Assembly: GCF_025024155.1 (NCBI RefSeq)
Contig: NW_026251767.1
Location: 62,001 to 126,000, forward strand
Direction: 5' to 3'
Length of the DNA stretch: 64,000 nucleotides
Source: Gamsiella multidivaricata
Lineage: Eukaryota > Mortierellomycota > Mortierellomycetes > Mortierellales > Mortierellaceae
Shown one piece after another: positions 7,464 to 55,891 of this stretch (positions are counted from its first letter, which is position 1; each line of letters starts with the position of its first letter). A model generated the notes under the pieces. It saw only the letters and a list, made by a program, of their open reading frames with translations, was not told the DNA's origin and ran no database searches. A program made the translations under genes and the position numbers.

Positions 7464-8547
7464 GGTTGTATATATGCGAATCCTGGAACGAAGGTTATGA
7501 GAAGCAGGACGTCTTGTTGATGCGAAAAACGGTGATGGGTCTGTCGGCGTCCTGTTTGAATCGGCAGTGAACACTGAACGTGGTCGGCCGGCAGCACTGT
7601 CCTTTGAGTGAGCCAGTGTTTACTAGTGGCTTGAATGAGCGAATTGAGTGACTGCAGATCGCATCCCAGGGTGTGCGGTCGCCACTAGAATATTTAAAGG
7701 TTGGTACCTGAAGTTGGCATGTGGTTCGCTATAGCATATCCAATACATATGGCTATATTTCAACACGATGTTCACACAGTAGTAATTGCCAGCTAGCTGG
7801 TCCGGTGTTCACGATGATCTGGATATCTCATCCTCAGCGCGACGCCGACGACTTCAGGCGTTGGCTGGGTCAGTGAGCGTTCGCTCCTTTCGTTGATCCC
7901 TCGCTGGAGTGAACGACTCGATTCAGGCGAGAATAGTTAGTCCCAGGTACCACATTGTCAGTCAAAGGATTCCCCGCATTTTCTGCGTTCCTGAGCAGAG
8001 TTTGACAGAGGAGAATAGTTCAAATTTTAAATAGCGGTGTGCTGGTTCGGATAACCTCCTCTGGATGTCCTTTTCTATAGAATGGAAGTCAAGTACCGAT
8101 AAGCGCAGGCGAGAATGGCGCTTTTGGTATATAGAGCGATCTGCCAGGAGCATTGCTGTCTAGTGACATTCTGACGAGGTGGGGTCGTAACTGTGCTGGG
8201 GATGCAGTGAAAAGTGGGAAATACAAAAAAACTGGAGCCCGCTTCTCCACATTTCCGGAGAGGACCCATTTTTTTTCTTGGTATTCTTCCGCTCCTCCCC
8301 ACTTCCGATCGTATTCTCGCGCTCGTCCGATGCTTCCGACATTACACAAAAAAAATGGGACCTTCCCCATCCAATCACAGCCCAACTATATATTGCTCTG
8401 ATACAGTTGGTTAGCGGCCCTAACAAACAACTGAGACACACCATCGATATAAAATCCAGACCGTCCCCCTTCACCTCTTTTCTTCTCTTCGTTTTCTTTA
8501 TCCATCGCATATCCACACCCCACTCCACTCCAGCAATCACCATCGCA
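7464..8547. other. Divergent intergenic region (bL27m / urate oxidase)
   Basis: About 1.1 kb between divergent starts. No gene is recognised. The 90 bp before the urate oxidase ATG is pyrimidine-rich, and a TATATA-type sequence occurs near 8386-8395. An open frame runs into the urate oxidase from 8278, but the uricase family start context favours the ATG at 8548. Confidence 0.5.
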
Positions 8548-9495
8548 ATGACCAACGCCGCCGTCAACGTCTACCTCGATAAGCAGGAGTACGGAAAGGA
8601 CAGAGTCCGTCTCCTCAAGGTCCACCGTGATTCCAAGGTCCACCGTGTTGATGACTTGACCATCCGCTGCCTTCTCTCCGGGGCCTCGTTCACGACCTCC
8701 TACACCGAGGCCTCCAACAAGGCCGTCGTTGCCACGGATTCGATCAAGAACACCTGCTACGTCCTCGCAAAGTCCTCCAAGGTCGTCGACACCCTCGAGC
8801 TCTTCGCCGCTGAGCTCGCCAACCACTTCTTGAACACCTACGCCTGGGTCGAGGGTGCCCATGTCACCATCATTCGCCACCGCTGGGCTCGCATGATCAT
8901 CGACGGCAAGCCCCACACTCACTCCTTCTGGCGCGACGGCGATGAGACTCGCCAGACCGATATCTTTGTCAAGCGTGGAGCCAACGGCCGCCGCACTGTC
9001 GACCTCAAGTCCGCCATTGCTGGATTGTTGGTCCTCAAGACCACCGGCTCATCGTTCGAGGACTTTGTCAGGGATGAATACACCACCCTCCCCGAGGCTA
9101 AGGACCGTATCCTCTCAACATGCGTGGATGCCAACTGGGAGTTCAACATCCCCTCGCTTCAGACCGACAGCCTTCTGCCCTCGATGTCCCAGATCCCCTT
9201 CAACCAGATCTACGACTCTATCCGTGATGTGACCTGCAAGACCTTTGCTGAGGATGAGTCGGCTTCTGTCCAGGCGACGCTCTATAAGATGGCTGCTCAG
9301 TCGATCCAGAACTGGAAGTGGTTGGACCGTGTCGCCTATGCCCTGCCTAACCGCCACTTCTTTGCTGTCGACCTCAGCTACTTCAGAGGCACCAAGAACT
9401 TGGCTGAGCATGCTGATGTTTACCAGCCCTTGTCTGATCCCTCGGGCCTGATCACTGCCACTGTCGCCCGCGCCCCTGGCACTGCTCGTCTTTAA
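8548..9495 (+). CDS. uaZ: Urate oxidase (uricase), peroxisomal
   Basis: Single-exon gene of 315 residues, the usual uricase length. It oxidises urate to 5-hydroxyisourate. The PROSITE uricase signature is present in full (LLVLKTTGSSF, then F, Y, L and R at the expected spacing). Residues matching the catalytic triad of the Aspergillus enzyme can be placed: Lys17 in YGKDRVR, Thr63 in VVATDSIKN, and His270 in LPNRHFF. The C terminus ends in ARL, which fits a type 1 peroxisomal targeting signal. The start is taken at the ATG that puts the conserved YGK motif near residue 15; a longer in-frame reading upstream is low-complexity. The next gene on the same strand, OHCU decarboxylase, acts two steps later in the same pathway. 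Confidence 0.97.
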   Translation: MTNAAVNVYLDKQEYGKDRVRLLKVHRDSKVHRVDDLTIRCLLSGASFTTSYTEASNKAVVATDSIKNTCYVLAKSSKVVDTLELFAAELANHFLNTYAWVEGAHVTIIRHRWARMIIDGKPHTHSFWRDGDETRQTDIFVKRGANGRRTVDLKSAIAGLLVLKTTGSSFEDFVRDEYTTLPEAKDRILSTCVDANWEFNIPSLQTDSLLPSMSQIPFNQIYDSIRDVTCKTFAEDESASVQATLYKMAAQSIQNWKWLDRVAYALPNRHFFAVDLSYFRGTKNLAEHADVYQPLSDPSGLITATVARAPGTARL

Positions 9496-13905: not shown

Positions 13906-16900
13906 CTACTTTCCTCCTTTCTTCTTCACAGCGAACTCCCGCTTAGTTCGGAAAAAACCTGACAGTTTGCTCATGACAGGACCAAATTGCTCACAGGTCT
14001 CGATCGATGATCCTATCCAGCCTGGTAATTTCTTACGGATCCGGGGCATGCCATACCGCTTGTCCATCAATACGATGACTGCATAATCACCTTGGTGTCG
14101 AATCGCTCGTCCAATCGACTGGTTCACTGCCCGCATACATAGATTTTCATAATACTCGCTGCCAGCGGTCATTCGTAGGGGCGCCGCCTTACTCGCTTGT
14201 TGCTGTTGGCCTAATTCCTGCTGTTGAACCTGATCCATGTACCGCATGCGCTCTTGAAGTTCTACAGAACCCTTATTCGGGAACGGCATACCAACCATGA
14301 CCACTCCTCGTCCCAATCTGTCCGAGAAATTGATGCCCTCGCTCATCTTTCCACCCACAACTGAGAACAAAACTGCCCCTCGCTGGCTCCCTTGGTTAGC
14401 AACATCGTGCTCGGGTATTTTATGAATACAATCTTGATACTCTTTCAGGAGTCGGTCCGCGTCGCTCGCCTCCCTGGGCTCGACGAATACTCGTTTCCGT
14501 GCTTGTATCCTGTCCATGATGGTGCTTGATGCAACAGCTCCAGAGGCGGTAATGCTCTTGGCCTGCCATCGAGTCAGCACTTGAGCCATGTACGAGTATG
14601 AGACAAAGAACACTACGACTCCATCAGGTATCATGCCGAGAATGTTGACCAGCGACTGCCCGACTCCATCCATGATTTGGTCTAGTGTCCGGTTCGCAAA
14701 GTTTAGTTCAAGGGATCCTCCTGTCGGGGTCTTTTCCATAACCAAAGTCATCAAATTCTCCTTCGGAATGACATGCCCACAAGAAAACCGGTGGATTCTT
14801 GGGTAAGACGGGCAGGCATTGCTGGAGACGATTTCGATGGCAGGATCGGTACCAGCAACCTTTAAATACGGGAAGAGATGGGACAATAAGTCTGACACAG
14901 GCTCCATGGTTCCACCCGCCAGAACGACGCTCCTGGCTTCGTCGACGAGGGGCTTGAACACGTTGGCTGGATTCAAGAGCATAAACTTCAAGGTCGGCTT
15001 CCTGCTCCTTGCAAATGTGGGCTTCACAACTGTCGGTCCCAGCTGTACCGAGTCGCTTTCATCCTCGTCGTTATTATTAGATCCTTCCTCCTCCATCGTC
15101 ACAATCACCCGGCCATCGTTGTCGGCATTTAAGAGACTCATCAAAAACGCATCAACCACAAGAAGAATGGGCGTTGTCGACATGCCGGAAGATGGTCTCC
15201 GTGGTTGTTGAACGCTGTCCTTGGATAGGTAATTCCTGCCCTGATGGATCTTGACTGTCGTGCTCCCATTTTCCTTGGATAGTCGCTTAGCTTCCTGTCT
15301 CTGTAGTGACTCATGTAGTCCTTGAAGTTTCCGGGCCACCCCACTAGTCTCCAGATACGCGTGTGCCTTAAATAGATTGATATGGTCCATTCCGGCGTCG
15401 TGCAAGAACTCATTGACCTTCATCACCCTATCCACCGGTCGCAACACTCGTCCACTCGCAGCCTCCTGGATGCGTCCTTGTTGAGACACTGCTGGCTGCG
15501 TCTGGTGCGACACTGCTGGCTGCGTCTGGTGCGACACTATAGAACGATCCGACTGCTGAGGTGGACTGGCCGTCCATTTATGAATAAATCCCTCGAGGCA
15601 CTTCAAGATCCTGAGCAACACACGAATGTATCCCTCGTTGGTGCTCGAGAGCCGCTTTTCATAGCGACTCAGATAGACCTGCAACTGCTCCTGAGCCAGT
15701 ACAATCTGCTGCAGCGACAGACCCACCGAGTGCATCTGTAGAAGGCTGTTGATTAAATTGTGGGCTTCATCCAACAACAAAATATTGTTCTTGATCATTA
15801 ACTTGAGTGACTCTCGAGTAGAGGCATGCAGTAGTAGGTTGTATGGCAGTGTCACTAATTGACAGTGTCGAACGGTTTGGCGCGATCCGTAATATGGGCA
15901 TGTCTCCAGCTCTGCTCCCAGTTCCGCAAGTTCTTCAATGTCTCGGACTCGTGCCAAGGTGTGGTCCCGAAACTCGAGCAGCTTTCCATCGCCCTCAATT
16001 GTATCGTCAGTCCTCCACCATGCGCTCTCGTCAACAGAATCGCTACCATCAGTTGAATTTTCAAACAAACCGTGGCGTCTTTTGTTTCCGAAAGAAGCGG
16101 AAGGCACGTGAAGGAACTCACAACGCTGCATAGATGGTGTTCCAGACTTCTGCCCATCCAAGCAGGCATCGTTCAGCTTATTGACATTGATGATGGATTC
16201 CGCTGTACTGTTGGTTTTCACAGTCGCCTTTTGTCGAAATCTGTCATTGATGCAGAGTGACTTGCGGGATCCCAGAGATACAACATGCAGATGTTCGCCG
16301 TATGAGGTCTTACGCAGCTCGTCGATGAACTGGGAAAGCTGCGAATGCGTCCTTGAGCAATAGTAGATCTAATTAGACGAGGTGAAATGTATTTGTTAAA
16401 TCTGAAAAAAATTAAAAATTAATAGAGCAAAAGGAAAAAAACAAGAGACATGCTACCTTGAGCACGTCTGGCTCTAAGTCCTCATCATCCATCCCAAATC
16501 TTGTCCTCCTTGCTCCATGGGCTACTTCTTTGGCGTCAAAACTAATACATACACACGGATCAAATTATTGGAGTCTGTCCATGCGTCTCCACTATAAATT
16601 CGTGTACCATGTTTGCTTCACGAACCTTTTCAAGAGCTCCAAAACCTCCTTGGAAACGTTCCCGTACTCATCACCGCTATTCTTTGCCGCCCATCCTCCT
16701 TTCTGATTGTCGTCGCTATCGTACTCGTCCACCAAGAACTCGGTATCATCCATGTCATCATCATCTGAGTCTTGGCCTTTCTATAATATCGCAACGACAC
16801 ACCAAAGTCATAAGCACGAATTTTTTTGAGATAACGATCACCAGGGCATTTTACAGCGAATCGCTTAGGCTCTTCGTATTACCTTTTTTTTGGACTGCCC

Positions 16901-28692: not shown

Positions 28693-31538
28693 TTATAGAG
28701 TTAGCCGCGACGAGAAAAAGCTGACTAGCGAACTTGGGAGCTCTGTCTCCACAGGTACATCCTGATCTTCCACAGCCTTGCCAGAGTCGTCCTCCATATC
28801 CACGTCTATCAATGTTCGAGAAGCCAAGTTTAGTCATTTAAACAAAAAAAAAAAAAAAAAAAAAAAAGTCGCATAAAGCAATGAAAGAGCATGCTGCCTT
28901 ACCATTTACTGTCGATTCACTTTCGCCACTCTCCAGAATTCCTTGCTCCTGTTGTTGTTGCTTCTTCCGTGCCTTAGCCTCCTCCTTAGTGGCCTTATTA
29001 TGCGTCAACAACTGTCCCATGAATACCTCAAACAACGACGACACCGGTGCCATAACATGTGAAGGTGCATCAAACAACGGGTTGCGGGCCAAATTCTTCT
29101 TGGACACCAGACCACGGCCTGTGCTCTCGCTCCTCTCCTTCTTCTCTTTAGCCTTGGCCGATGCTGCCTCAGCCTTGGCCGACGATCCAAAGATATCCGT
29201 TACCATCGTCTTCTGCTTCTGGGCCTCCAATGCCAGAGCTCTTGCCTTCTCTGCCGCTTCTTCAGCCTCGGCCTTCAAGTCCTCGGCCGTACGTCCCCCA
29301 AGGACTTCAAGATCGTATCCGTGGTTCATGATCAGAATGGGCTCCACCGCATCCGAGGGACCGGCCTTAGCCTGGACTGCGGGATCTGGTAAGAAAGTAA
29401 TCGCACGAACCTTCTTGTTAATGGTTTCAATATGAACGGGCTTAGGGCTCGTGGCCTTGAAGACGATGATCCTGTGCTGAGGAGTCGTAGTTGAGGCTGG
29501 GTCGTTGCAAGTGACCACAAAGTTGGCATTTGTCTGTGACGCCTTCAAATTGTCAATCTTGATTTGATAGCTCCACCAGACCGAGCAAGTCAGCAGGTTC
29601 CATGAGTACAAATGATCCTTAGTCGCTGCAATCAGGAAGGGTGAGTTCTTCAAGAAAGTCAAGTGCTTGATGGGACGGTTCTCAGGGGGTTGGGTCAAGA
29701 CTGCTTGAAGTGTGTTCAGATAGGGGTTCCAGATGGTGATGATCTGATCATAGGCGACCGCAAGAAGGGAGCCATCCGAGGAAAATCCAGCACAGTGTGG
29801 GACCATGTCTCTGTAGAATCCAGTTGATCGACAGCTCCAAGCCTTTTCAGCCTCAATTCCACGACGCGCCTCTCCCTGGTGGGTTAGCTCCCAGACCTTG
29901 AAGGTTCCGTCCAACGAGGAGGTGACGACCATAGGTGCCTGGTTGCCTTCGCGCGGATTAAAGATGCACGAGGTAATCTCCTTGGAATGTGGTGCATCCA
30001 CGCGGGTATTCAGAATATAATTGCGAGCATCGTCGTCGTATTCCCAAAACTTGAGGTACAACTCGGGTGTGGTCTCATAGTCATCACGGCCGTCAACTGT
30101 CACCATCCAGCGGCCAGTTTTGCCATTCGAGAAGGCGCAGTGCATGACGTTGGGCTGAATGATCTCCTTCTCGTCTGTACGCGACACTTTGTTGCGGGGG
30201 GTGATTTCCAGCTCCATAATATGTTGCTCCTTAATCGGATCATAAAACTGAAGAGTTCCAGGCATTCCATTAAGGACGACGTGGCCATTGCGAGGCTCAA
30301 TCACCAGTCCAGTCGATAGAGGGTTGGTGAGGTGGTTCACATGGGCTATAGGCAAGTAACAAAATTTGGTGGCAATTAAAATTCTGTTCACTCAAAACCA
30401 GCAAGCGTCGAACGGCAGCCCAAAGTCAAGACATACAAAACTTGAGCCCCTGAATAACGGTCTTGATCTTGAGGTCCACGCTACGGATGACATTGACAGA
30501 GTTGTCCTGATGTCCGATTGCATAGAATCCTTGATCGGGCGAGACAGTGATGTGCTTGATCTCCGATCCTAGTCGTGGCAAGAACTGTTTGAATCCCGTA
30601 TTGAGCTGCCAGATCACCAATACCGCTTCCTCTCCTCCGGACAGCAGGTAGGTTCCATCGGATGTGAAGGTGAGCGCCGCCACCTTGTGAGCGTGCCAGT
30701 GCATGATAGTTGTCACTGGTCTATCCACGTTCTTTCCGAAGCAGTACCAGAGCGTAATACGTCCACGCTCATCTCCTGTAGCAATGCATCCTTCAGTTGG
30801 GTGAAACGCGAGACAGGTAATCTTCTCCGGCGTAATGTAACATCTGAAGCGGGACTCGTCATTCTCGGTTACGCCGCCTGCCTCGACTCCGTTTCCGGCT
30901 GCAATATGAATGACGTGCAACTTATAGCGCCCTGCCATGACCAAGTACTCTCCGTCCGAAGAAATAGCCAATCCGCCGCAGGCACGGGTCTTGAGAAGGC
31001 GAATCAGTCTCTTGCGAGACGACTTAAAGGAATAGCGAAGCAGCACAGAGTTTTCCTTTGCACGAAGACCACCAGCTATTAATATTTGACGTGTCGCGGA
31101 ATAGTAAGCAACATGGGCATCGCTTTCACGAATGCATTAAAAACGACCCAAAGACTTACACTTCCTTGCTTGGTATTGATGGAAGCGCTTGGTTGACTTC
31201 TTTGTCGTCGCCAGATAAACATCATTGGGCATATTCTCGTGCATGACCATGTGTGTGATAGGGAAGCCGATGTCGAAGGTCTTGAGCAGAACCGCATCGT
31301 TGAAGTCCCAGAGCTTGATAGTTCCGTCCAGAGAAGCCGAGTAGAGTTGAAGAGAGTTCCGGGGATTAAGGATGACACTTGTCACCGTGTTCGAGTGTCC
31401 GCCCTCTTCGACCGAAGACGAGAGGATACGCACGACCTGTCCCGTTTCGACAGAAAGAATGCGGATCGACTTTCCGCTGCATGAGAAGAAGTAGTTCGAG
31501 TCTGAGGTGAAGACTACCTCGTAGTCTGATAGACGCAT
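28693..31538 (-). CDS. UTP17: WD40 SSU-processome protein Utp17/Nan1 (WDR75)
   Basis: Four exons (31538-31160, 31075-30437, 30345-28903, 28805-28693) give 857 residues. The protein has two tandem beta-propellers with WD repeats such as LYSASLDGTIKLWDF, GCIATGDERGRITLWYC, YLLSGGEEAVLVIWQ and MVVTSSLDGTFKVWEL. A C-terminal part includes an Ala/Lys/Glu coiled coil (AEEAAEKARALALEAQKQK) and an acidic tail. The layout matches WDR75/Nan1, a subunit of the t-UTP (UtpA) complex that binds the 5' ETS and couples Pol I transcription to pre-18S processing in the nucleolus. The last intron carries a run of about 23 adenines (plus strand, 28844-28867). It is divergent from a second processome gene with 227 bp between starts. 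Confidence 0.88.
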
Positions 31539-42660: not shown

Positions 42661-42813
42661 TAATCAATCACCTGTGTCCTGCAGAAAATATATTGCCCAA
42701 GGCTTAATTGACACCGTCCAATGCCCGAGTTCTGAAACTGATAGGTACCCCGTAGATGTGGTCTTTCTCCTCTCCTACGCTAATGATGATAACGCCATAA
42801 AAAACTCTGCGAC

Positions 42814-42930
42814 GTACAGTCGAAACTGGTTTTTAGGCCGCATTCTCAAATGAAAACGCGGCCTAAAGCTTCAAAGTTATGGAGCCGATTTACATACGAA
42901 AACGGCTCCAAAAACCAATTTCGACTGCAC
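42814..42930. mobile_element. MITE-like element with terminal inverted repeats and two internal hairpins
   Basis: 117 bp. The ends are inverted repeats matching at 20 of 23 positions (GTACAGTCGAAACTGGTTTTTAG against the complement of the right end). Inside are two separate perfect stems: TTTAGGCCGC (42832-42841) with GCGGCCTAAA (42858-42867), and TGGAGCCG (42880-42887) with CGGCTCCA (42903-42910). There is no coding capacity. The CAGTCGAAA end resembles short Tc1/mariner-type termini, and a TA precedes the left CAGTCG, but the right flank is CA, so a target-site duplication is not clear. Confidence 0.7.
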
Positions 42931-43183
42931 TTATATTTGGACCATTCGTAGTCAGCAATTGCAGACCATTCTGACGTGTAGCAGTTGTAGCAGTAGCTGT
43001 GATTGAGCAGATAATGATTTATTCAAGAAAGCTGGATTCAATAAAAATACACAGTTTTTCAAAAAAAGACAATGAAGCAAAAAGAAAGCGCATTAGATCA
43101 AATAACAAAAGCACAGAAAACAACAACGAAATAGTAATAGAGAAAATTGAAAACAAACTGAAATGAAGACCAAGCAGAAGGAT

Positions 43184-46100
43184 TTAAGGCTTCTTAAACA
43201 AAAAATTGGTCTTGGTATCTTGGGGAATGCTAAAGTTCGTTCGCAGAGGGTATTCGTAGTACGGGTCATGCTGTGCAAGATCAGGACAGTTCTTGGGTGG
43301 GAACTTGTTGATCGTCGCAATCAGCTCGTTGACGCGAAGTGGTTTCGTAATGTATTCATCCTAAAAGATTAAAAGAAACAGTAACTCCGTTAGCGAACTT
43401 GTCCATAAAGAAAATATGCTGCAGCAAAAAAAAACTAATAGATCGGAAGAACACCTACCATTCCAGCAGAAAGACATTTCTCTCGGTCGCCAATCATGGC
43501 GTGTGCTGTCAAGGCAATGATCGGCAGATGCTCGTTCTTGCCCTTCAAAAGCTCCAGCTTTCGAATCTCCTGCGTCGCCTCAAATCCTCCCATAATGGGC
43601 ATCTGGACATCCATTAAAATCAGATCAAAGTGCTTAGTGTCGTAGCACTCGACAGCCATCTTGCCGTTCGATACAATCGTGACCTTGTGCCCGAACTTCT
43701 CAAGGATTCGAACTGCCAACTTCTGGTTGACAACATTGTCCTCGGCCAAGAGAATATGCAAGGGAATGGCGTGCTCAGCATCCGAGGGGAGGGCAGAAGC
43801 GGACTCGAATGCCGGCAAAAGCGCGTTCATCAAGTCGGGCAGTTGAACTGGTGGGTTGAAGTAACTGGCAATACCCAGCTCCTGACAGACCTTCATGCTG
43901 ATATAAGGTGTCGTCATGGATAAAAGCACAATTGGCAGGAATCGAAGCATTCCAATCTCCTTAATCTTGCGGATATCTTTGACATTGTCAACAATGATCA
44001 CATCAAACATGGACTTCTCCTGGGCCGATGTACTCGGGCCAGAAAGCGGGACAATTGCGGCGGCTTGTTCGAGCGATGCCACATGTGTGGCCTTGAACCT
44101 GAGCTCCTCCAGTGTTTTCATGACAGAGCGCGAAATGACTTCGTCGCGCATCGTACCCATGTAGAGGATGTGACGTCCAATATAGGGCTTTGTCTTCAAG
44201 TTGATTTGGTCCCAGGACATGGTACCTGTGTTGAACCGGACCGTGAAGAAGAACTGAGATCCTTTTCCGAACGTACTGTTGACCCAAAGATCACCTCCCA
44301 TCAAAGTAACGAGACGCTTCGAGATGGATAGACCGAGACCAGTGCCACCGTACTTGCGCGTAGTCGAACCATCCGCCTGGCAGAAAGTGTCAAAGACAAC
44401 CTCGATCTTGTCGCTCTGGATTCCAATACCCGTATCCGAGACACAGAACTGGAGCTCAACACCATTATCCGTCTTGTTTTTGCACACGCAGTCCAGGACA
44501 ACACTTCCTTCTGTTGTAAACTTGATAGCGTTTCCGATGAGGTTGGTGATAACCTGGCGCAGTCGCAAAGGATCGCCGACAAGCTGATCTGGGAAATCAT
44601 TGTGGACGTTGTAGATGAGATCAAGTTTCTTCTGGTGCGCCTTGACTGCGAGCGTCTTTAACACACCAAACGCCTGGGTTCGAAGAGAGAATGGAGCCTG
44701 CTCAATCGTCATTTTACCAGCCTCGACTGAAGACAAAAAAAAATCGTAAAACGACCATGGGATTAGTGCGCGGAGCAATTGTAGCTATATATCAAATTAA
44801 AAACTCAAGACAATTGCTCTTACTCTTGGAAATATCGAGGATATCATCAATAATGGTCAACAGAGAGTGGGCCAGATGACTGACAATCACCAAGTTCTCA
44901 CGCTGCTGTCGAGTAAGTTCTGTCTCCAAGGTCAGACTGGTCATTCCAATAATACCGTTCATAGGAGTTCTAGGTAAGCAGAAAATACAGCGCATTAGCA
45001 ATCCGAACCATCAACTACATTTTTGCGTACAATGTGAACGCAAAAATTTCCTTACCTGATCTCATGCGACATGTTAGCCAGGAACTCAGACTTTGAGCGG
45101 TTCGCCAATTCTGCTGCTTCACGAGCAGCAGTGTTCTTCTGGATACTCTCACGGAGATCATACACCATCTGGTTGATCTTGGTCTTAAGAGAGTCCATCT
45201 CACCCGAGGCCTCCACAGTGATGAATTGTGTAAAGTCACCATCGGTGGCGGCAGTTGAGATCGAGGCGAAAGCACGCACTTGCGCAGTCAAGTTGGAAGC
45301 CATGGTGTTGACGTTCGAAGTGATCTCCTTCCACGTTCCACGCACATCTTGGACCTGCGCTTGTACTCCCAACTTACCCTCAGTGCCGACCTCGCGCGCG
45401 ACACGCGTCACCTCATTAGCGAACATCGATAGTTGATCCACCTACCAAAGACAAAAGCTCATTAGTTCTTCGCTTAGAAGTATCAAAGAATAAAGTGAAT
45501 ATGCAAGAGCATCGCCTTACCATCGAATTAATAGTGTTCTTCAGATCCAAGATTTCACCCTTGACGTTAACAGTAATCTTCTTGGTCAGGTCCCCGCGAG
45601 CGACGGCTTTACTGACGTCTGCAATGTCACGCACTTGAGTTGTGAGATTGGCTGCCATGGTATTCACGTTCTCAGTCAACTCCCTCCACGTACCACCAAC
45701 GTCTTCAACCTCGGCCTGGCCGCCCAACCTGCCCTCAGTACCGACTTCACGAGCGACACGCGTAACCTCGGCAGCAAACGTCCTCAACTGTTCAACCATG
45801 GAGTTGACAGTCTTCTTCAACTCAGAGATCTCGCCTTGGGCCTCAACATCAATAGTCTTACTCAGGTCACCACAAGCGACTGCTGTCGTGACTTCGGCAA
45901 TGGATCGGACTTGAGTTGTAAGATTGGAAGCCATGGTGTTGACGTTATCAGTCAACTCCTTCCAGGTACCATCAACGCCCTCAACCTCGGCCTGGCCACC
46001 CAACTTTCCTTCGGTGCCGACCTCGCGAGCGACACGCGTGACCTCGGCTGAGAAAGTGGACAGTTGGTCCACCTACAACATAGAAGACCTGAAATTAGAC

Positions 46101-49100
46101 ATCCGCACCATAGCCCAAGATACAACACATTTGAATACAATATACTGCCAGTTGTCACATACCATAATGTTGATCGTGTTCTTCAGGTCAAGAATCTCTC
46201 CCTTGGCGTCCACTGAGATCTTCTGGGTCAGGTCTCCCTTGGCGACGGCCTTGCTGACATCGGCAATATCACGCACCTGGGCTGTCAAGTTGGCGGCCAT
46301 GGTATTCACGTTGTCAGTCAGTTCTTTCCAGGTACCATCGACACCCTCGACCTCGGCTTGACCACCCAGCTTGCCCTCAGTACCGACCTCGCGAGCGACA
46401 CGAGTGACCTCGGCGGCAAACGTCCTGAGTTGTTCCACCATGGAATTTACGGTCTTTTTCAGCTCAGAAATCTCACCCTGGGCCTCAACATCAATCGTCT
46501 TGCTCAGGTCTCCGCAGGCGACGGCGGTGGTAACCTCAGCGATGGATCGCACTTGAGTCGTCAAATTGGCAGCCATCGTGTTGACATTGTCCGTAAGCTC
46601 CTTCCATGTTCCGCTCACATCCTTCACATCCGCCTGACCGCCAAGCTTTCCTTCCGTACCGACCTCGAGACTCACACGAGTTACCTCTGTCGCAAACTCT
46701 TGTAGCTGGTCGACCATGATGTTGATGGTATGCTTAAGGTCCATCATCTCTCCCTTGACCTCGACAGTGATCTTCTTGGTCAAGTCTCCACGAGCGACGG
46801 CTTTACTGACACTGGCAATATCACGCACCTGTGCTGTGAGATTGGCAGCCATGGTGTTGACATTGTCCGTGAGCTCCTTCCAGGTACCATCAACACCCTT
46901 GACATGCGCTTGACCTCCCAACTTACCCTCAGTTCCAACTTCACGGGCAACACGCGTGACCTCAGCAGCGAACGTCCTCAACTGTTCTACCATCGAGTTG
47001 ACAGTCTTCTTCAGCTCAGAGATCTCTCCTTGAGCCTCAACATCAATGGTCTTGCTCAGGTCACCACAGGCGACGGCGGTGGTAACCTCAGCGATGGATC
47101 GTACCTGAGTTGTCAAGTTACTAGCCATGGTGTTGACATTGTCCGTCAGTTCCTTCCATGTTCCACTGACGTCTTTCACATCGGCCTGACCACCAAGCTT
47201 TCCTTCCGTTCCGACCTCGAGACTCACTCGGGTGACCTCGGTTGCGAATTCTTGGAGCTGGTCCACCATGATGTTGATGGTGTGTTTAAGGTCCATCATC
47301 TCTCCCTTGACCTCGACAGTGATCTTCTTGGTCAAGTCTCCACGAGCGACGGCCTTACTGACACTGGCGATGTCACGCACCTGCGTTGTCAAGTTCGCTG
47401 CCATGGTGTTGACGTTGTCTGTAAGTTCCTTCCAGGTACCGTCCACTCCCTTGACATGAGCCTGGCCTCCGAGTTTACCCTCGGTACCGACCTCTCGAGC
47501 GACACGAGTGACCTCGGCAGCAAATGTCCTCAGCTGCTCCACCATGGAGTTGACAGTCTTTTTCAACTCAGAGATCTCGCCTTGTGCTTCGACATCGATA
47601 GTCTTACTTAGGTCGCCACATGCGACAGCGGTAGTGACTTCGGCAATAGACCGCACCTGGGCCGTCAAATTGGCGGCCATGGTATTCACGTTGTCGGTCA
47701 GTTCTTTCCAGGTACCATCAACACCCTCAACCTCGGCCTGGCCACCCAACTTTCCTTCGGTGCCGACCTCGCGAGCGACACGCGTGACCTCGGCTGAGAA
47801 AGTGGACAGTTGGTCCACCTACAACATAGAAGACCTGAAATTAGACATCCGCACCATAGCCCAAGATACAACACATTTGAATACAATATACTGCCAGTTG
47901 TCACATACCATAATGTTGATCGTGTTCTTCAGGTCAAGAATCTCTCCCTTGGCGTCCACTGAGATCTTCTGGGTCAGGTCTCCCTTGGCGACGGCCTTGC
48001 TGACATCGGCAATATCACGCACCTGGGCTGTCAAGTTGGCGGCCATGGTATTCACGTTGTCAGTCAGTTCTTTCCAGGTACCATCGACACCCTCGACCTC
48101 GGCTTGACCACCCAGCTTGCCCTCAGTACCGACCTCGCGAGCGACACGAGTGACCTCGGCGGCAAATGTCCTGAGCTGCTCCACCATTGAGTTGACAGTC
48201 TTCTTGAGTTCTGAAATCTCACCCTGGGCCTCAACGTCGATAGTTTTGCTCAAGTCTCCGCAGGCTACAGCAGTGGTAACCTCAGCAATCGATCGTACCT
48301 GTGTCGTCAAATTGGCAGCCATGGTGTTGACGTTATCCGTGAGTTCCTTCCAGGTGCCATCGACGCCCTCGACCTCGGCCTGGCCGCCAAGGTTTCCTTC
48401 AGTTCCGACCTCGCGGGCGACACGGGTGACCTCAGCGGCAAACATCCTGAGCTGCTCCACCATGGAATTTACGGTTTTCTTAAGTTCAGAGATCTCTCCT
48501 TGGGCCTGTACGTCAATAGTCTTACTTAGATCTCCACAGGCAACAGCAGTGGTAACCTCAGCGATGGATCGTACTTGTGTAGTAAGGTTCGATGCCATGG
48601 TGTTGACATTGTCTGTTAATTCCTTCCAGGTTCCGCTCACATCCTTGACAACAGCTTGACCACCGAGTTTACCCTCGGTACCGACCTCAAGACTCACTCG
48701 GGTTACCTCAGTGGCGAATTCCTGAAGTTGATCCACCATGGTATTGATGGTATGCTTAAGATCCATCATCTCACCCTTAACTTCAACGGAAATCTTTTTG
48801 GACAAGTCACCCTTGGCGACGGCCTTACTGACGCTGGCAATATCACGCACCTGTGCTGTGAGATTGGCAGCCATGGTGTTGACATTGTCCGTGAGCTCCT
48901 TCCAGGTACCATCGACACCCTTGACATGAGCCTGGCCACCTAGTTTGCCCTCGGTTCCGACCTCACGAGCGACACGAGTGACCTCGGCGGCAAACGTCCT
49001 GAGTTGTTCCACCATGGAATTTACGGTCTTCTTCAACTCAGAGATTTCGCCCTGGGCCTCAACATCAATCGTCTTGCTCAGGTCTCCGCAGGCGACGGCG

Positions 49101-52100
49101 GTGGTAACCTCAGCGATGGATCGCACTTGAGTCGTCAAATTGGCAGCCATCGTGTTGACATTGTCCGTAAGTTCCTTCCATGTTCCGCTCACATCCTTCA
49201 CATCCGCCTGACCGCCAAGCTTTCCTTCCGTACCGACCTCGAGACTCACACGAGTTACCTCTGTCGCAAACTCTTGTAGCTGGTCGACCATGATGTTGAT
49301 GGTATGCTTAAGGTCCATCATCTCTCCCTTGACCTCGACAGTGATCTTCTTGGTCAAGTCTCCACGAGCGACGGCTTTACTGACACTGGCAATATCACGC
49401 ACCTGGGTCGTCAAGTTCGCTGCCATGGTGTTGACATTGTCCGTGAGTTCCTTCCAGGTACCATCGACGCCCTTGACATGAGCCTGGCCACCTAGTTTGC
49501 CCTCGGTACCGACCTCACGAGCGACACGCGTGACTTCAGCGGCGAACGTCCTCAATTGTTCCACCATGGAGTTGACAGTCTTCTTCAACTCAGAGATTTC
49601 GCCTTGGGCTTCGACATCAATGGTCTTGCTCAGGTCTCCGCAGGCGACTGCAGTGGTAACCTCAGCAATGGATCGTACCTGCGTAGTAAGATTTGATGCC
49701 ATGGTGTTGACATTGTCCGTCAACTCCTTCCAAGTTCCACTGACATCCTCGACAACGGCCTGTCCACCGAGTTTGCCCTCGGTACCGACCTCTAAACTGA
49801 CACGACTGACCTCAGTTGCAAACTCCTGCAATTGATCCACCATGGTGTTGATAGTGTGCTTAAGGTCCATCATCTCTCCTTGGACCTCCACGGAAATCTT
49901 TTTGGACAAGTCACCCTTGGCGACGGCCTTACTGACGCTGGCAATATCACGCACCTGTGCTGTGAGATTGGCAGCCATGGTGTTGACATTGTCCGTGAGC
50001 TCCTTCCAGGTACCATCGACGCCCTTGACATGCGCTTGACCTCCCAACTTGCCTTCAGTTCCGACTTCACGGGCAACACGTGTGACCTCAGCAGCGAACG
50101 TCCTCAACTGTTCCACCATGGAGTTGACAGTTTTCTTTAGCTCTGAAATCTCTCCCTGCGCCTCGACATCGATCGTTTTGCTCAAGTCACCGCAGGCGAC
50201 AGCGGTGGTGACTTGAGCAATCGATCGTACCTGGGTCGTCAAATTAGCGGCCATGGTGTTGACGTTGCCAGTGAGTTCCTTCCAAACTCCATCAACATTA
50301 CGAACGTTTGCTTGTCCGCCCAGCTTTCCTTCAGTGCCGACTTCCAAACTGACACGACTGACTTCTGTGGCGAACTCCTGAAGCTGGTCCACCATGGTGT
50401 TGATGGTATGTTTGAGATCCATCATCTCTCCTTTAACCTCGACAGTGATCTTCTTGGATAGATCTCCTCTAGCAACAGCCTTACTGACGCTGGCAATATC
50501 ACGCACCTGGGTCGTCAAGTTCGCTGCCATGGTGTTGACGTTATCCGTGAGTTCCTTCCAGGTACCATCGACGCCCTTGACATGAGCCTGGCCACCGAGT
50601 TTTCCTTCAGTTCCGACTTCACGGGCAACACGTGTGACTTCAGCGGCAAACGTCCGGAGTTGTTCCACCATGGAGTTTACGGTCAGCTTCAGCTCAGAGA
50701 TTTCGCCCTGTGCTTCGACCTCAATCGTCTTGCTTAAGTCTCCGCAGGCGACTGCAGTTGTGACCTCGGCAATCGACCGTACTTGCGCCGTCAAGTTGGC
50801 AGCCATGGTGTTGACATTATCAGTCAGCTCCTTCCAAGTGCCATCAACGCCCTTGACTTCAGCCTGACCACCGAGCTTTCCCTCCGTGCCGACCTCGCGG
50901 GCAACACGTGTTACTTCTGCTGAAAAAGTGGACAGTTGGTCGACCTATGATAAAGAAGATTCGTAGTCAGTTATTTGCAACATAGATTAAGATACAACAA
51001 ATGTAAAAACAGTATACCGCCCGCTTATACATACCATGATGTTGATCGTGTTCTTGAGATCGAGAATCTCTCCCTTGGCATCCACTGAGATCTTCTGTGT
51101 CAGGTCACCCTTAGCGACAGCTTTACTGACATTGGCAATGTCACGCACCTGTGTTGTCAGATTAGAAGCCATGGTATTGACGTTCTCAGTCAGTTCTCTC
51201 CATGTACCGCCGACGTCTTCAACCTCGGCCTGTCCTCCCAGTCGTCCCTCGGTTCCGACCTCACGGGCAACACGGGTGACTTCAGCAGCAAACGTCCTCA
51301 ACTGTTCAACCATGGAGTTGACAGTCTTCTTCAGCTCAGAGATTTCGCCCTGTGCTTCGACCTCAATCGTCTTGCTCAAATCTCCGCAGGCGACTGCAGT
51401 GGTAACCTCGGCAATGGATCGGACCTGGGCTGTCAAATTAGCAGCCATGGTATTCACGTTATCGGTCAACTCTTTCCAAGTACCGTCGACGCCCTTGACA
51501 TGCGCTTGACCTCCCAACTTGCCCTCAGTACCGACCTCGCGAGCGACACGCGTGACTTCAGCGGCAAACGTCCTGAGCTGCTCCACCATCGAGTTCACTG
51601 TCAGCTTTAGCTCAGAGATCTCTCCTTGAGCCTCAACATCAATGGTCTTGCTCAGATCACCACAGGCGACGGCGGTGGTAACCTCAGCGATGGATCGTAC
51701 TTGTGTCGTCAAATTGGCAGCCATCGTGTTGACATTGTCCGTCAGTTCCTTCCATGTTCCACTGACGTCTTTCACATCGGCCTGACCACCAAGCTTTCCT
51801 TCCGTTCCGACCTCGAGACTCACTCGGGTGACCTCGGTTGCGAATTCTTGGAGCTGGTCCACCATGATGTTGATGGTGTGTTTAAGGTCCATCATCTCTC
51901 CCTTGACCTCGACAGTGATCTTCTTGGTCAAGTCTCCACGAGCGACGGCCTTACTGACACTGGCGATGTCACGCACCTGCGTTGTCAAGTTCGCTGCCAT
52001 GGTGTTGACGTTGTCTGTAAGTTCCTTCCAGGTACCGTCCACTCCCTTGACATGAGCCTGGCCTCCGAGTTTACCCTCGGTACCGACCTCTCGAGCGACA

Positions 52101-55100
52101 CGAGTGACCTCGGCAGCAAATGTCCTCAGCTGCTCCACCATGGAGTTGACAGTCTTTTTCAACTCAGAGATCTCGCCTTGGGCCTCAACATCGATAGTCT
52201 TCCTCAGGTCTCCACAAGCGACAGCGGTAGTAACTTCGGCAATAGACCGCACCTGGGCCGTCAAATTGGCGGCCATGGTATTCACGTTGTCGGTCAGTTC
52301 TTTCCAGGTACCATCAACACCCTCAACCTCGGCCTGGCCACCCAACTTTCCTTCGGTGCCGACCTCGCGAGCGACACGCGTGACCTCGGCTGAGAAAGTG
52401 GACAGTTGGTCCACCTACAACATAGAAGACCTGAAATTAGACATCCGCACCATAGCCCAAGATACAACACATTTGAATACAATATACTGCCAGTTGTCAC
52501 ATACCATAATGTTGATCGTGTTCTTCAGGTCAAGAATCTCTCCCTTGGCGTCCACTGAGATCTTCTGGGTCAGGTCTCCCTTGGCAACAGCCTTGCTGAC
52601 ATCGGCAATATCACGCACCTGGGCTGTCAAGTTGGCGGCCATGGTATTCACGTTGTCAGTCAGTTCTTTCCAGGTACCATCGACACCCTCGACCTCGGCT
52701 TGACCACCCAGCTTGCCCTCAGTACCGACCTCGCGAGCGACACGAGTGACCTCGGCGGCAAACGTCCTGAGCTGCTCCACCATTGAGTTGACAGTCTTCT
52801 TGAGTTCTGAAATCTCACCCTGGGCCTCAACGTCGATAGTTTTGCTCAAGTCTCCGCAGGCTACAGCCGTGGTAACCTCAGCGATAGATCGTACTTGGGT
52901 CGTCAAGTTGGCAGCCATGGTGTTGACGTTATCAGTCAACTCCTTCCAGGTACCATCAACGCCCTCAACCTCGGCCTGGCCACCCAACTTTCCTTCGGTG
53001 CCGACCTCGCGAGCGACACGCGTGACCTCGGCTGAGAAAGTGGACAGTTGGTCCACCTACAACATAGAAGACCTGAAATTAGACATCCGCACCATAGCCC
53101 AAGATACAACACATTTGAATACAATATACTGCCAGTTGTCACATACCATAATGTTGATCGTGTTCTTCAGGTCAAGAATCTCTCCCTTGGCGTCCACTGA
53201 GATCTTCTGGGTCAGGTCTCCCTTGGCGACGGCCTTGCTGACATCGGCAATATCACGCACCTGGGCTGTCAAGTTGGCGGCCATGGTGTTGACGTTATCG
53301 GTCAGCTCCTTCCAGGTACCATCGACACCCTCGACCTCGGCTTGACCACCCAGCTTGCCCTCAGTACCGACCTCGCGAGCGACACGAGTGACCTCGGCGG
53401 CAAATGTCCTGAGCTGCTCCACCATTGAGTTGACAGTCTTCTTGAGTTCTGAAATCTCACCCTGGGCCTCAACGTCGATAGTTTTGCTCAAGTCTCCGCA
53501 GGCTACAGCAGTGGTAACCTCAGCAATCGATCGTACCTGTGTCGTCAAATTGGCAGCCATGGTGTTGACGTTATCCGTGAGTTCCTTCCAGGTGCCATCG
53601 ACGCCCTCGACCTCGGCCTGGCCACCAAGGTTTCCTTCAGTTCCGACCTCGCGGGCGACACGGGTGACCTCCGCAGCGAAGGTTCGCAATTGGTCCACCA
53701 TGGTGTTCATAGTCTCCTTGAGATCCAGAATCTCGCCCTGGACTGGCACACTAACCTTCTTGGTGAGGTCACCGCAGGCCACAGCTTTGCAGACTGTCGC
53801 AATGTCTCGCATCTGGCCAGTCAAATTCGAGGCCATAAGATTTACATTGTCCGTCAATTCTTTCCAGGTTCCGCTGACGTCTTTGACATGCGCTTGTCCG
53901 CCCAGCTTTCCTTCAGTGCCGACTTCCAAACTGACACGACTGACCTCTGTGGCGAACTCCTGCAGCTGGTCCACCATGGTGTTGATGGTATGTTTGAGAT
54001 CCATCATCTCTCCTTTAACCTCGACAGTGATCTTCTTGGACAGATCTCCTCTAGCGACAGCCTTACTAACACTCGCAATATCACGCACCTGCGTCGTCAA
54101 GTTAGCAGCCATGGTGTTGACGTTCTCTGTCAGCTCCCTCCACGTACCACCAACGTCTTCGACCTCGGCCTGACCGCCCAATTTGCCCTCAGTACCGACC
54201 TCACGAGCGACACGAGTGACCTCTGCAGCGAACGTCCTGAGCTGTTCCACCATGGAATTTACGGTCTTCTTCAGCTCCGAAATCTCACCCTGCGCCTCAA
54301 CATCAATCGTTTTACTCAAGTCTCCACAGGCGACGGCAGTGGTAACCTCGGCAATCGACCGCACTTGCGCTGTAAGGTTGGCAGCCATGGTGTTGACATT
54401 GTCGGTCAGCTCCTTCCAAGTACCATCTACGCCTCTCACGCGTGCCTGTCCGCCCAGTTTGCCTTCTGTTCCGACTTCGTGAGCGACTCGAGTGACCTCG
54501 GACGAGAACGAACGAAGATGATCAACTACACGGACCCAAAATTGCCATCAAAGAAAACAATGAGTATATACCACGTGTAGTATTTTCCGCATGAACAAAA
54601 AAAAAAAAGTGGATATTACACGTCAGTTCGAAAGAAGGTTAGAAAGCGAGTTATTAGGACCAAGGATGGTTCTGTGATGACAAAAGAATCCCAGAAGACA
54701 GTTGTCAAGCCTACGGGTTTACTTACCCATGGTGTTAATAGTGGTTTTCAGAACGAGGGTTTCTCCCTTAGCATCCACCTTGATCTTACGACTGAGATCA
54801 CCGTGAGCCACAGCTGTGCAGACAGAGGCGATATCACGGACCTGCTCCATGTGGTCTGCTGTCATGGTGTTCAGATGAGTGACAAACTCCTTCCAGATAC
54901 CGCGATCGTCCTCCATGTTGGCTTGCACACCAAGCTTGCCCTCAACTCCTTGAGCAGCGACCTGAATGACCTCCTCCGTAAACTTGGATAGCTTAGTTAC
55001 CATTTCGTTGATAGAGATGTTCAACGCAGACTGGTGACAAGCGTTGTTGTGACACTCTATCCGAACACCAAGGTCTCCTCGGACGACGGCTGCTGCCACC

Positions 55101-55891
55101 AGGGCACATTGGTGAATACATTGAGCGCAGGGAACGGTTCCAGCTGCTGCTGCTGTCGTTGTCGATATGGCCACGGCGGAGCTGTCGAGGCTTGTTGGAG
55201 AGCAAAGAGGAGAGGAGCGCAGATCTTTTGAGGATGCAACGGGGGGCGAAGTTGACGCAGTGATGGATGAAGAGATGAAGGTCTGACCGTGCCCAGAGGC
55301 CTGACCATTCAAATCCGTAGGTTGGACGAAGCAAACAGATCCATTATCGGTGGCATCGATTGAGTGTGCTGCTGAAGCCGAGGCAGCCAACCTAGGTTGG
55401 ACCGGGATGTTTGAAGGGCTTACGGGCAACAGGGTATGGATGGACCTTGCTTGCGATAGCGTCTGCATTGGGTACAGTGGCCGCTCCTGCTGTATGCTTG
55501 TATTGGTCGGAGGATGGTTGACGAACTCCCAATTACCCTCGTTCCACCTGGAGGAGGCTGGGATGGGAGGTGAGAGCGAATCAACGGGCGGTGTAAGGAT
55601 GGGAGGAGCGAGAGTGATATCCGAAACAAGTGAGTTAACGGGTTGGAGGGTCTTGATGTATCTGTTGTGTTTTGCGAGCTCATTCTCCAGTCTGAACATC
55701 TTTTGAACGACCCGCTGTAAGGAGGCATCGACCTTCTGGATATAATGTGGTGTGGAGGCATCGACAAAGTCGAGTGGCAATGGGTTTGGAGAGACAAACG
55801 ACTGTGAGACAGGGTCGAGGTCCTTGTCCTGGACGAGTAAGTCCAGGACAACGCCTACGTGACAGATATATGCCTCTGCCAGCGTAGACAT
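43184..55891 (-). CDS. NIK1: Giant group III hybrid histidine kinase with 33 HAMP repeat units
   Basis: Eleven exons (55891-54727, 54525-53147, 53056-52505, 52414-51035, 50944-47909, 47818-46163, 46072-45521, 45441-45056, 44969-44824, 44726-43459, 43360-43184) splice in frame to 3,898 residues. Order: a Ser/Thr/Pro-rich N terminus (to about 260), a half HAMP, one 91-residue HAMP unit (about 298-388), 31 units of exactly 92 residues (389-3240), a final unit (3241-3332), a coiled coil, HisKA with [16 protein letters not shown] (phosphoacceptor near His3366), HATPase (N box [16 protein letters not shown] boxes SDTGIG and [10 protein letters not shown]), a pseudo-receiver, and a receiver with Asp near 3790 (LILMDVQMP) and TKPLR. 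Family: Os-1/Nik1 kinases act upstream of Ypd1 and the HOG MAPK and Skn7 branches in osmotic stress, and are targets of phenylpyrrole and dicarboximide fungicides; they usually have about five to seven units. No membrane segment is seen. Confidence 0.9.
45057..54525 (-). repeat. Tandem 276-bp HAMP-coding repeats
   Basis: Exons 2 to 7 (with one base from exon 1) contain 5, 2, 5, 11, 6 and 2 units of exactly 276 bp (exon lengths 1380 including the split codon, 552, 1380, 3036, 1656 and 552 bp); exon 8 starts with one more unit. Unit classes by first residues: S ([11 protein letters not shown]), R ([11 protein letters not shown]) and Q ([11 protein letters not shown]). Exons 3 to 7 each begin with S and end with an R whose tail is [11 protein letters not shown] or [11 protein letters not shown]. 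Exon 3: S R; exon 4: S R Q R R; exon 5: S R, then Q R four times (the last R is VEQLRMF), then R; exon 6: S R Q R Q R; exon 7: S R. Exon 2 holds a more divergent unit ([34 protein letters not shown]) near 53690-53890. Many copies are near-identical at DNA level. Confidence 0.93.
46073..53146 (-). repeat. Four identical 90-bp introns within the histidine kinase gene
   Basis: The introns at 46073-46162, 47819-47908, 52415-52504 and 53057-53146 appear identical base for base (plus strand CTACAACATAGAAGACCTGA... to ...CAGTTGTCACATAC). A fifth intron in the same repeat position, 50945-51034, is also 90 bp but diverged. All five interrupt the repeat at the same phase-0 site, after the NTINIM codons and before VDQL. 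They mark duplicated blocks of repeats together with their intron. Confidence 0.92.

Follow-up and report, generated by a model that had tools for sequence, protein, structure and literature searches.

How far can a signal reach through stacked HAMP domains, and does the length of such an array tune a sensor? The question is raised by a gene on the minus strand of a 64,000-nucleotide stretch of the Gamsiella multidivaricata genome (here denoted the window; contig NW_026251767.1, positions 62,001 to 126,000), which an earlier note had read from the letters alone as a group III (Nik1/Os-1) hybrid histidine kinase with 33 tandem HAMP units. We rebuilt the splice model independently from the sequence (43184-55891, minus strand) and obtained exactly the 3,898 codons that the note had proposed, in 11 exons and 10 GT-AG introns, with intact phase, an ATG at 55891 and a stop codon ending at 43184. 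The in-frame coding sequence of 11,697 bp including the stop has no internal stop, and the computed mass of its product, 418.7 kDa, agrees with the predicted value of about 420 kDa. The count of 33 units stands; their length, given before as 91-92 residues, needed correction, all 32 unit-to-unit spacings being exactly 92 aa. The Pfam profile count that had been suggested as a check (PF00672) detected 31 independently passing stretches in exons 1-7, and a profile built from the kinase's own 92-aa units scored the array at 33.6 units. The uninterrupted 11.7-kb coding sequence, the low median dN/dS between core units (about 0.09, below) and a second locus of identical architecture on a different contig all exceed chance expectation. 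Together these data confirm the observation of a 33-repeat giant kinase gene, as a prediction from the DNA.

Behind the array, the HisKA, HATPase and receiver domains are intact, as claimed. The HATPase_c and Response_reg matches are both above the Pfam cut-offs, HisKA was located by a whole-genome profile search, and the phospho-acceptors His3366 and Asp3790 as well as the N-box (starting at N3479) are all present. A simple hydropathy scan found a single 19-residue window with hydropathy of at least 1.6, located in the HisKA region, and no convincing membrane segment.

Over 557 aa, the kinase part shares 95.2% of its residues with a Mortierella claussenii protein; its identity is 93.7% to an Entomortierella protein named NIK1 by NCBI and 86-94% to the remaining Mortierellaceae entries scored. 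In a tree of 37 rows, built without Kickxellales and without a characterised Os-1 or Nik1 sequence after 8 of 45 rows had been left out because the H-box pattern used did not match them (an SHEV variant in 6), the 33-unit kinase falls inside a supported Mortierellaceae clade (97/100) that includes the one member named NIK1. The domain architecture supports the group III assignment of the earlier note, and we conclude that the gene is, by its predicted product, a soluble group III (Nik1/Os-1-type) hybrid histidine kinase of the Mortierellaceae type. Its 33 repeats lie outside the five to six of published group III kinases; we treated repeat number as a property and not as a defining feature of the group, because relatives grade from 7.5 to 39 units.

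The second locus emerged from a search of the whole genome (37.5 Mb, 180 contigs), in which all 54 PF00672 matches sit in the 33-unit gene and one paralogue (57 candidates, all scored). The HAMPs found in this genome-wide PF00672 search are confined to the two giants, and no group III kinase of ordinary size came to light in it. The paralogue (contig C120:237468-247886 (+), loci L009 and L010) has 8 exons and encodes 3,214 aa with 25 units, all spaced by 92 aa, and the same cysteine cap and kinase; it clusters with Linnemannia proteins and a single one from Mortierella alpina (87/94). Profile searches of the genome also detected 14 HisKA loci and two Hpt loci, and therefore a phosphorelay partner exists.

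What is a 92-residue unit? Pfam detects one HAMP in each. According to the available text of the CaNik1p work (PMC3848655), group III repeats formerly counted as one HAMP are concatenated pairs, the nine HAMPs of CaNik1p forming four 92-aa pairs and one single. Because that sequence analysis makes the 92-aa unit a HAMP pair, the array would by that reading consist of 33 HAMP pairs and one cap HAMP, about 67 HAMPs; the 33 of the earlier note hold for repeats and not for HAMPs. A profile of 2.5 units matched the PDB chains 9trk and 9trj (E 3.5e-92 and 6e-43), identified by their molecule name alone, histidine kinase,Gcn4p, and also Aer2 (3vol; E 3.9e-4). In an AlphaFold2 model of the 2.5-unit piece, of low confidence (mean predicted local distance difference test score, pLDDT, 51.8), each unit contains a pair of long helices and two connectors, a pattern that would fit two HAMPs.

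The array carries the marks of its own history. At the DNA level, 29 of the 33 units have their nearest match elsewhere in the array itself (at up to 100% identity; unit 10 is identical to unit 26, and unit 24 to unit 30), and units 1, 4, 32 and 33 are closest to units 1, 3, 24 and 25 of the paralogue. A diagonal scan detected nine block pairs of 225-1,335 bp that are 94-98% identical, the longest being 1,335 bp at 97.8%, and introns 2, 3, 5 and 6 have one and the same 90-bp sequence, of which no other copy was found in the genome. These results indicate that the array grew by repeated duplication inside the gene and underwent concerted evolution with anchored ends, the ends matching the paralogue and the middle being homogenised. 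The core units have a median ratio of nonsynonymous to synonymous substitution rates (dN/dS) of 0.088 (465 pairs, dS undefined in 107), and those of the paralogue 0.086 (253 pairs, 63 undefined). Their order follows a two-unit rhythm: units two apart are 88% alike, compared with 75% for neighbours in the 33-unit gene and 74% in the paralogue, and shuffled unit orders matched the observed rhythm in 0 of 2,000 and 1 of 2,000 trials, respectively. The rhythm is strong in three further Mortierellaceae proteins (89-95% vs 69-72%) and absent in the Linnemannia, Mucorales and Kickxellales tested.

Turnover of whole units is visible within a species. In Linnemannia elongata, the kinase parts of the records AG-77 and F5H01 are identical and both arrays count 23 units, and a plain alignment suggested equal arrays; this was overturned by a unit-by-unit alignment, in which two units are found in AG-77 only and two in F5H01 only, and 16 of the 21 aligned units are identical. 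In the plain alignment 182 of 183 mismatches fall within the array, and 180 of 181 array mismatches carry a residue present at the same place in another unit (random-control mean 32), demonstrating that the array differences are unit exchange and not point mutation. Of the length polymorphism between isolates that had been proposed, gain and loss of whole units is seen between these L. elongata records, but the net number is equal in the two complete ones. We discarded the lower unit count of the BKA57 record as a polymorphism, its annotation being 176 aa shorter at the N terminus. The spacing from unit to unit, taken across 244 proteins, is exactly 92 aa in 2,990 of 3,239 cases, 93 aa in 70 and 97 aa in 94, with half-unit and one-and-a-half-unit spacings limited to four in 40-56 aa and four in 130-146 aa. 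The 92-aa register agrees with selection on HAMP parity but does not prove it, and we make no such claim, since recombination acting on a 276-bp repeat would change the array by whole units in any case.

The earlier note took the length of the array to be exceptional, which does not hold for early-diverging fungi. The first protein search scored 8,000 candidates of 1,901-6,050 aa (120 listed), the search for shorter proteins listed 120 of 337 matches (503-1,601 aa), and a search for proteins of at least 3,429 aa gave nine, all listed, eight from Kickxellales and one from Mortierella alpina (3,638 aa). By the 92-aa profile the 33-unit gene ranks fifth of 123 proteins, below an irregular Linderina model (39.0 units) and three Coemansia proteins (38.9, 37.0 and 36.9 units), and its 3,898 aa are the longest found outside Kickxellales. 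The clade ranges are those among the proteins examined in each length window, because other lengths fell outside the searches, and we assigned the clade labels manually, following the source names. Proteins with an H-box have 18.0-30.6 units in Mortierellaceae (13 proteins, the lowest annotated as partial), 13.5-26.5 in Mucorales (31), 31.9-39.0 in Kickxellomycotina (7), 7.5-9.5 in Glomeromycotina (12), 15.0-27.7 in Dikarya (11, where only long ones could appear) and 6.9-15.9 in bacterial or unnamed entries (95). A size unique to the 33-unit gene was rejected, given the many giants in the protein searches and the 25-unit paralogue in the same genome. The gene is nevertheless real and striking: its predicted product is about three times the usual size, an extreme case within a widespread group of giant group III kinases that is unstudied as far as the searches reached. 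Titles and the openings of abstracts among the matches listed yielded no paper on giant HAMP arrays in these fungi; a 2010 catalogue of HAMP domains reportedly mentions long arrays.

The far end of the array is distinct. The cap HAMP has C-x2-C-x3-C before its first helix and a further C after it, a motif found in 72 of 102 early-diverging fungal relatives, many of them partial entries: 34/41 Mortierellaceae, 16/31 Mucorales, 8/12 Kickxellomycotina, 11/13 Glomeromycotina and 3/5 other early-diverging fungi. Among entries with the N-terminal flank, the cap is present in 33 of the 35 Mortierellaceae and eight of the nine Kickxellomycotina scored; by the pattern used, half of the Mucorales are without it. 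The motif was detected in none of the 11 Dikarya and none of the 129 bacterial or unnamed proteins scored, and it is common to short (7.5-9.5-unit) and giant kinases. This cysteine cluster capping the far end of the array in early-diverging fungi is new here. In 17 of the 33 units a second cysteine directly precedes GDL, where the first helix of the canonical HAMP ends. Such CGDL units number 272/490 in Mortierellaceae, 30/100 in Glomeromycotina and 9/647 in Mucorales, with 0/352 in Kickxellomycotina and 0/1,436 among the bacterial or unnamed units scored. We also observed that the CGDL cysteine of the 33-unit kinase follows the two-unit rhythm.

The data above demonstrate how the gene is built, how it was duplicated, that its ends are conserved and that whole units turn over; how the array might work is argued by analogy. 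We consider it reasonably probable that this is a group III kinase whose rod was lengthened to about 67 HAMPs by intragenic duplication, with specialised ends and an interior that governs threshold or reach through its length, this last step being the least certain. Two chains would form a parallel coiled rod, roughly 150 nm long by our own estimate from helix lengths, with neighbouring HAMPs in opposite conformers. In Aer2 the two HAMP conformers give opposite outputs and stacked HAMPs alternate (PMC3570549, in the text available), so that gain or loss of a whole pair would keep the sign of the output. The array would restrain the kinase and release it upon osmotic or chemical stress, and phosphate would move from His3366 onto Asp3790 and then, by way of a Ypd1-like Hpt protein, into a HOG-type pathway. 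Control of Hog1 by way of Ypd1 and mediation of the action of fludioxonil are functional marks of group III kinases. The available text on CaNik1p (PMC3848655) reports that the protein without all HAMPs activates Hog1 and that loss of single HAMP pairs lowers the response to fungicide; in these deletions the HAMP region restrains the kinase pathway. The cysteine cap and the kinase-proximal units would serve as specialised ends and the interior as an interchangeable relay or spacer, whose length could set threshold or reach. By analogy, then, the array may be pictured as a long restrained rod with specialised ends, and a rod that tunes sensitivity, or a mechanical or osmotic role, is plausible from the published deletions in shorter homologues. 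More elaborately, a conserved tip cysteine cluster binding metal or sensing redox state would feed about 67 HAMPs, with a cysteine-bearing HAMP about every second unit, and sign-preserving gains and losses of whole pairs by intragenic recombination, rapid enough for strains to differ, would tune threshold or reach; we consider this length-coded rod improbable.

Several results weigh against a lengthened HAMP rod tuned by its interior. The halves of the unit are weakly alike (half-unit profile against the other half, E 0.0049, probability 7.2%, above 20 shuffled controls), the AlphaFold2 model of 2.5 units is poor, and a Foldseek search with it gave no match at E 0.001 or better. Recombination on a 276-bp DNA repeat would by itself also produce exact 92-residue steps, and the sharing of the same kinds of ends by arrays of 7.5-39 units fits a neutral length too. 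Under neutrality the cap and the kinase-side units matter, the interior drifts by unequal exchange and gene conversion, and whole-unit changes are harmless. The conserved ends and homogenised middle, the spread of 7.5-39 units among the fungi examined, and the whole-unit gain and loss between L. elongata records with identical kinase parts all agree with it. We nevertheless regard it as somewhat unlikely, since clades keep their own ranges (Mortierellaceae and Kickxellomycotina, n=13 and n=7, above), the protein sequence of the interior units is under strong purifying selection, and drift should have shrunk some arrays to Dikarya size, although such arrays may lie outside the length windows searched.

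It is also possible, but unlikely, that the fungus makes a shorter kinase by skipping array exons through alternative splicing or internal starts. Exons 3-7 measure 552, 1,380, 3,036, 1,656 and 552 bp, all multiples of 276 bp (2, 5, 11, 6 and 2 units), and could be dropped in frame and in register. However, introns 2-7 occupy a single fixed position within the unit, and therefore exons 3-7 hold whole numbers of units; this symmetry would follow from introns copied together with the unit, and coding constraint spans the core units throughout. An assembly artefact, in which the joining of reads inflated the repeat number, is very improbable: exact repeats of up to 455 bp and four identical introns are hard for short reads, but an assembly loop is unlikely because the unit copies differ and the longest exact repeat is those 455 bp, the order of the units has its own rhythm, the paralogue reaches 25 units, arrays of similar size occur in relatives sequenced by other projects, and short-read error usually shortens such arrays.

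For the question of signal reach and array length, early-diverging fungi offer a natural series that runs from about 7.5 units up to 39, in which the ends are similar and whole units change even between records of one species, where published systems offer few HAMPs to vary. The cysteine cap, in turn, is a concrete candidate for the input site in these lineages, the input of group III kinases being debated.

The genes for the uricase, the helicase, the WDR75-like protein and the Kelch protein listed below are ordinary neighbours. A short element adjoins the 3' end of the kinase gene at 42810-42940, with 21-nt inverted ends (GTACAGTCGAAACTGGTTTTT / AAAAACCAATTTCGACTGCAC) 75 nt apart and partial matches at five other genome places, one of them on both strands (6 rows, 84-95%); it looks like a small mobile-element remnant. 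Antisense (+) open frames lie over the array at 46706-47611 (301 aa), 51611-52393 (260 aa) and 53453-54580 (375 aa), as expected for by-products of the repeated codon pattern, not genes.

Features of the giant kinase gene and of its neighbours, in window coordinates.
Feature	Position	Strand	Basis
Whole gene, 11 exons, 3,898 aa, 418.7 kDa	43184..55891	-	splice model
Exon 1: N-terminal region, cysteine-capped single HAMP, most of unit 1	54727..55891	-	start codon region conserved in paralogue
N-terminal cap HAMP, residues 255-314, C-x2-C-x3-C ... C cluster	54950..55129	-	motif
Array, 33 units x 92 aa, residues 315-3350, split by introns 1-7	45112..54949	-	
Intron 1, 201 bp	54526..54726	-	splice model
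Exon 2	53147..54525	-	splice model
Intron 2, 90 bp, one of four identical copies	53057..53146	-	
Exon 3, 552 bp = 2 units	52505..53056	-	
Intron 3, 90 bp, identical copy	52415..52504	-	
Exon 4, 1,380 bp = 5 units	51035..52414	-	
Intron 4, 90 bp, diverged	50945..51034	-	
Exon 5, 3,036 bp = 11 units	47909..50944	-	
Intron 5, 90 bp, identical copy	47819..47908	-	
Exon 6, 1,656 bp = 6 units	46163..47818	-	
Intron 6, 90 bp, identical copy	46073..46162	-	
Exon 7, 552 bp = 2 units	45521..46072	-	
Intron 7, 79 bp, within-unit position as in introns 2-6	45442..45520	-	
Exon 8: array end and HisKA start	45056..45441	-	
Phospho-acceptor His3366 codon	45064..45066	-	
Exon 9: HisKA	44824..44969	-	whole-genome HisKA search
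Exon 10	43459..44726	-	
HATPase_c (PF02518), in exon 10	44233..44577	-	Pfam, E 1.8e-28
Receiver (PF00072), exon 10 part; continues in exon 11	43459..43755	-	Pfam, E 2.6e-22
Receiver Asp3790 codon	43609..43611	-	
Exon 11, rest of receiver	43184..43360	-	
Kelch protein	4385-6112	+	Pfam
Uricase	8191-9492	+	Pfam
DEAD_2 + Helicase_C_2 (XPD/FANCJ-like) helicase	13909-16368	-	Pfam
WDR75-like beta-propeller	28841-30391	-	Pfam

Among known systems, the bacterial poly-HAMP proteins (Aer2; AskA, AskB and Amb07) are also built of 92-aa HAMP pairs, and the available text of PMC7643160 describes the poly-HAMP regions of Amb07, AskA and AskB as longer than that of NIK1. The long bacterial proteins that we scored have 12-16 units, with GAF domains listed for many; bacterial poly-HAMP proteins show one spacing of 97 aa and are without the cysteine cap (129 bacterial or unnamed proteins). 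CaNik1p, Os-1, TcsC, Bos1 and DhNik1p share with the window kinase the 92-aa HAMP-pair repeats, HisKA, HATPase_c, one receiver and the lack of a detected membrane segment. The window kinase differs from them in its 33 units, compared with five to six in published group III kinases (PMC3848655, as far as its available text goes), in its 3,898 aa, compared with 1,337 aa for TcsC (PMC11253588, likewise), and in its cysteine-capped first HAMP, unlike the published kinases. A further set of parallels is formed by the giant relatives in databases from Coemansia RSA 986 (5,388 aa), C. spiralis (4,990 aa), Mortierella alpina (EC968_005523, 3,638 aa), Linnemannia and Mucorales, in which domain order and the 92-aa unit are as in the window kinase. 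Among the Mortierellaceae examined the window kinase has the longest array, and four Kickxellales proteins have longer ones.

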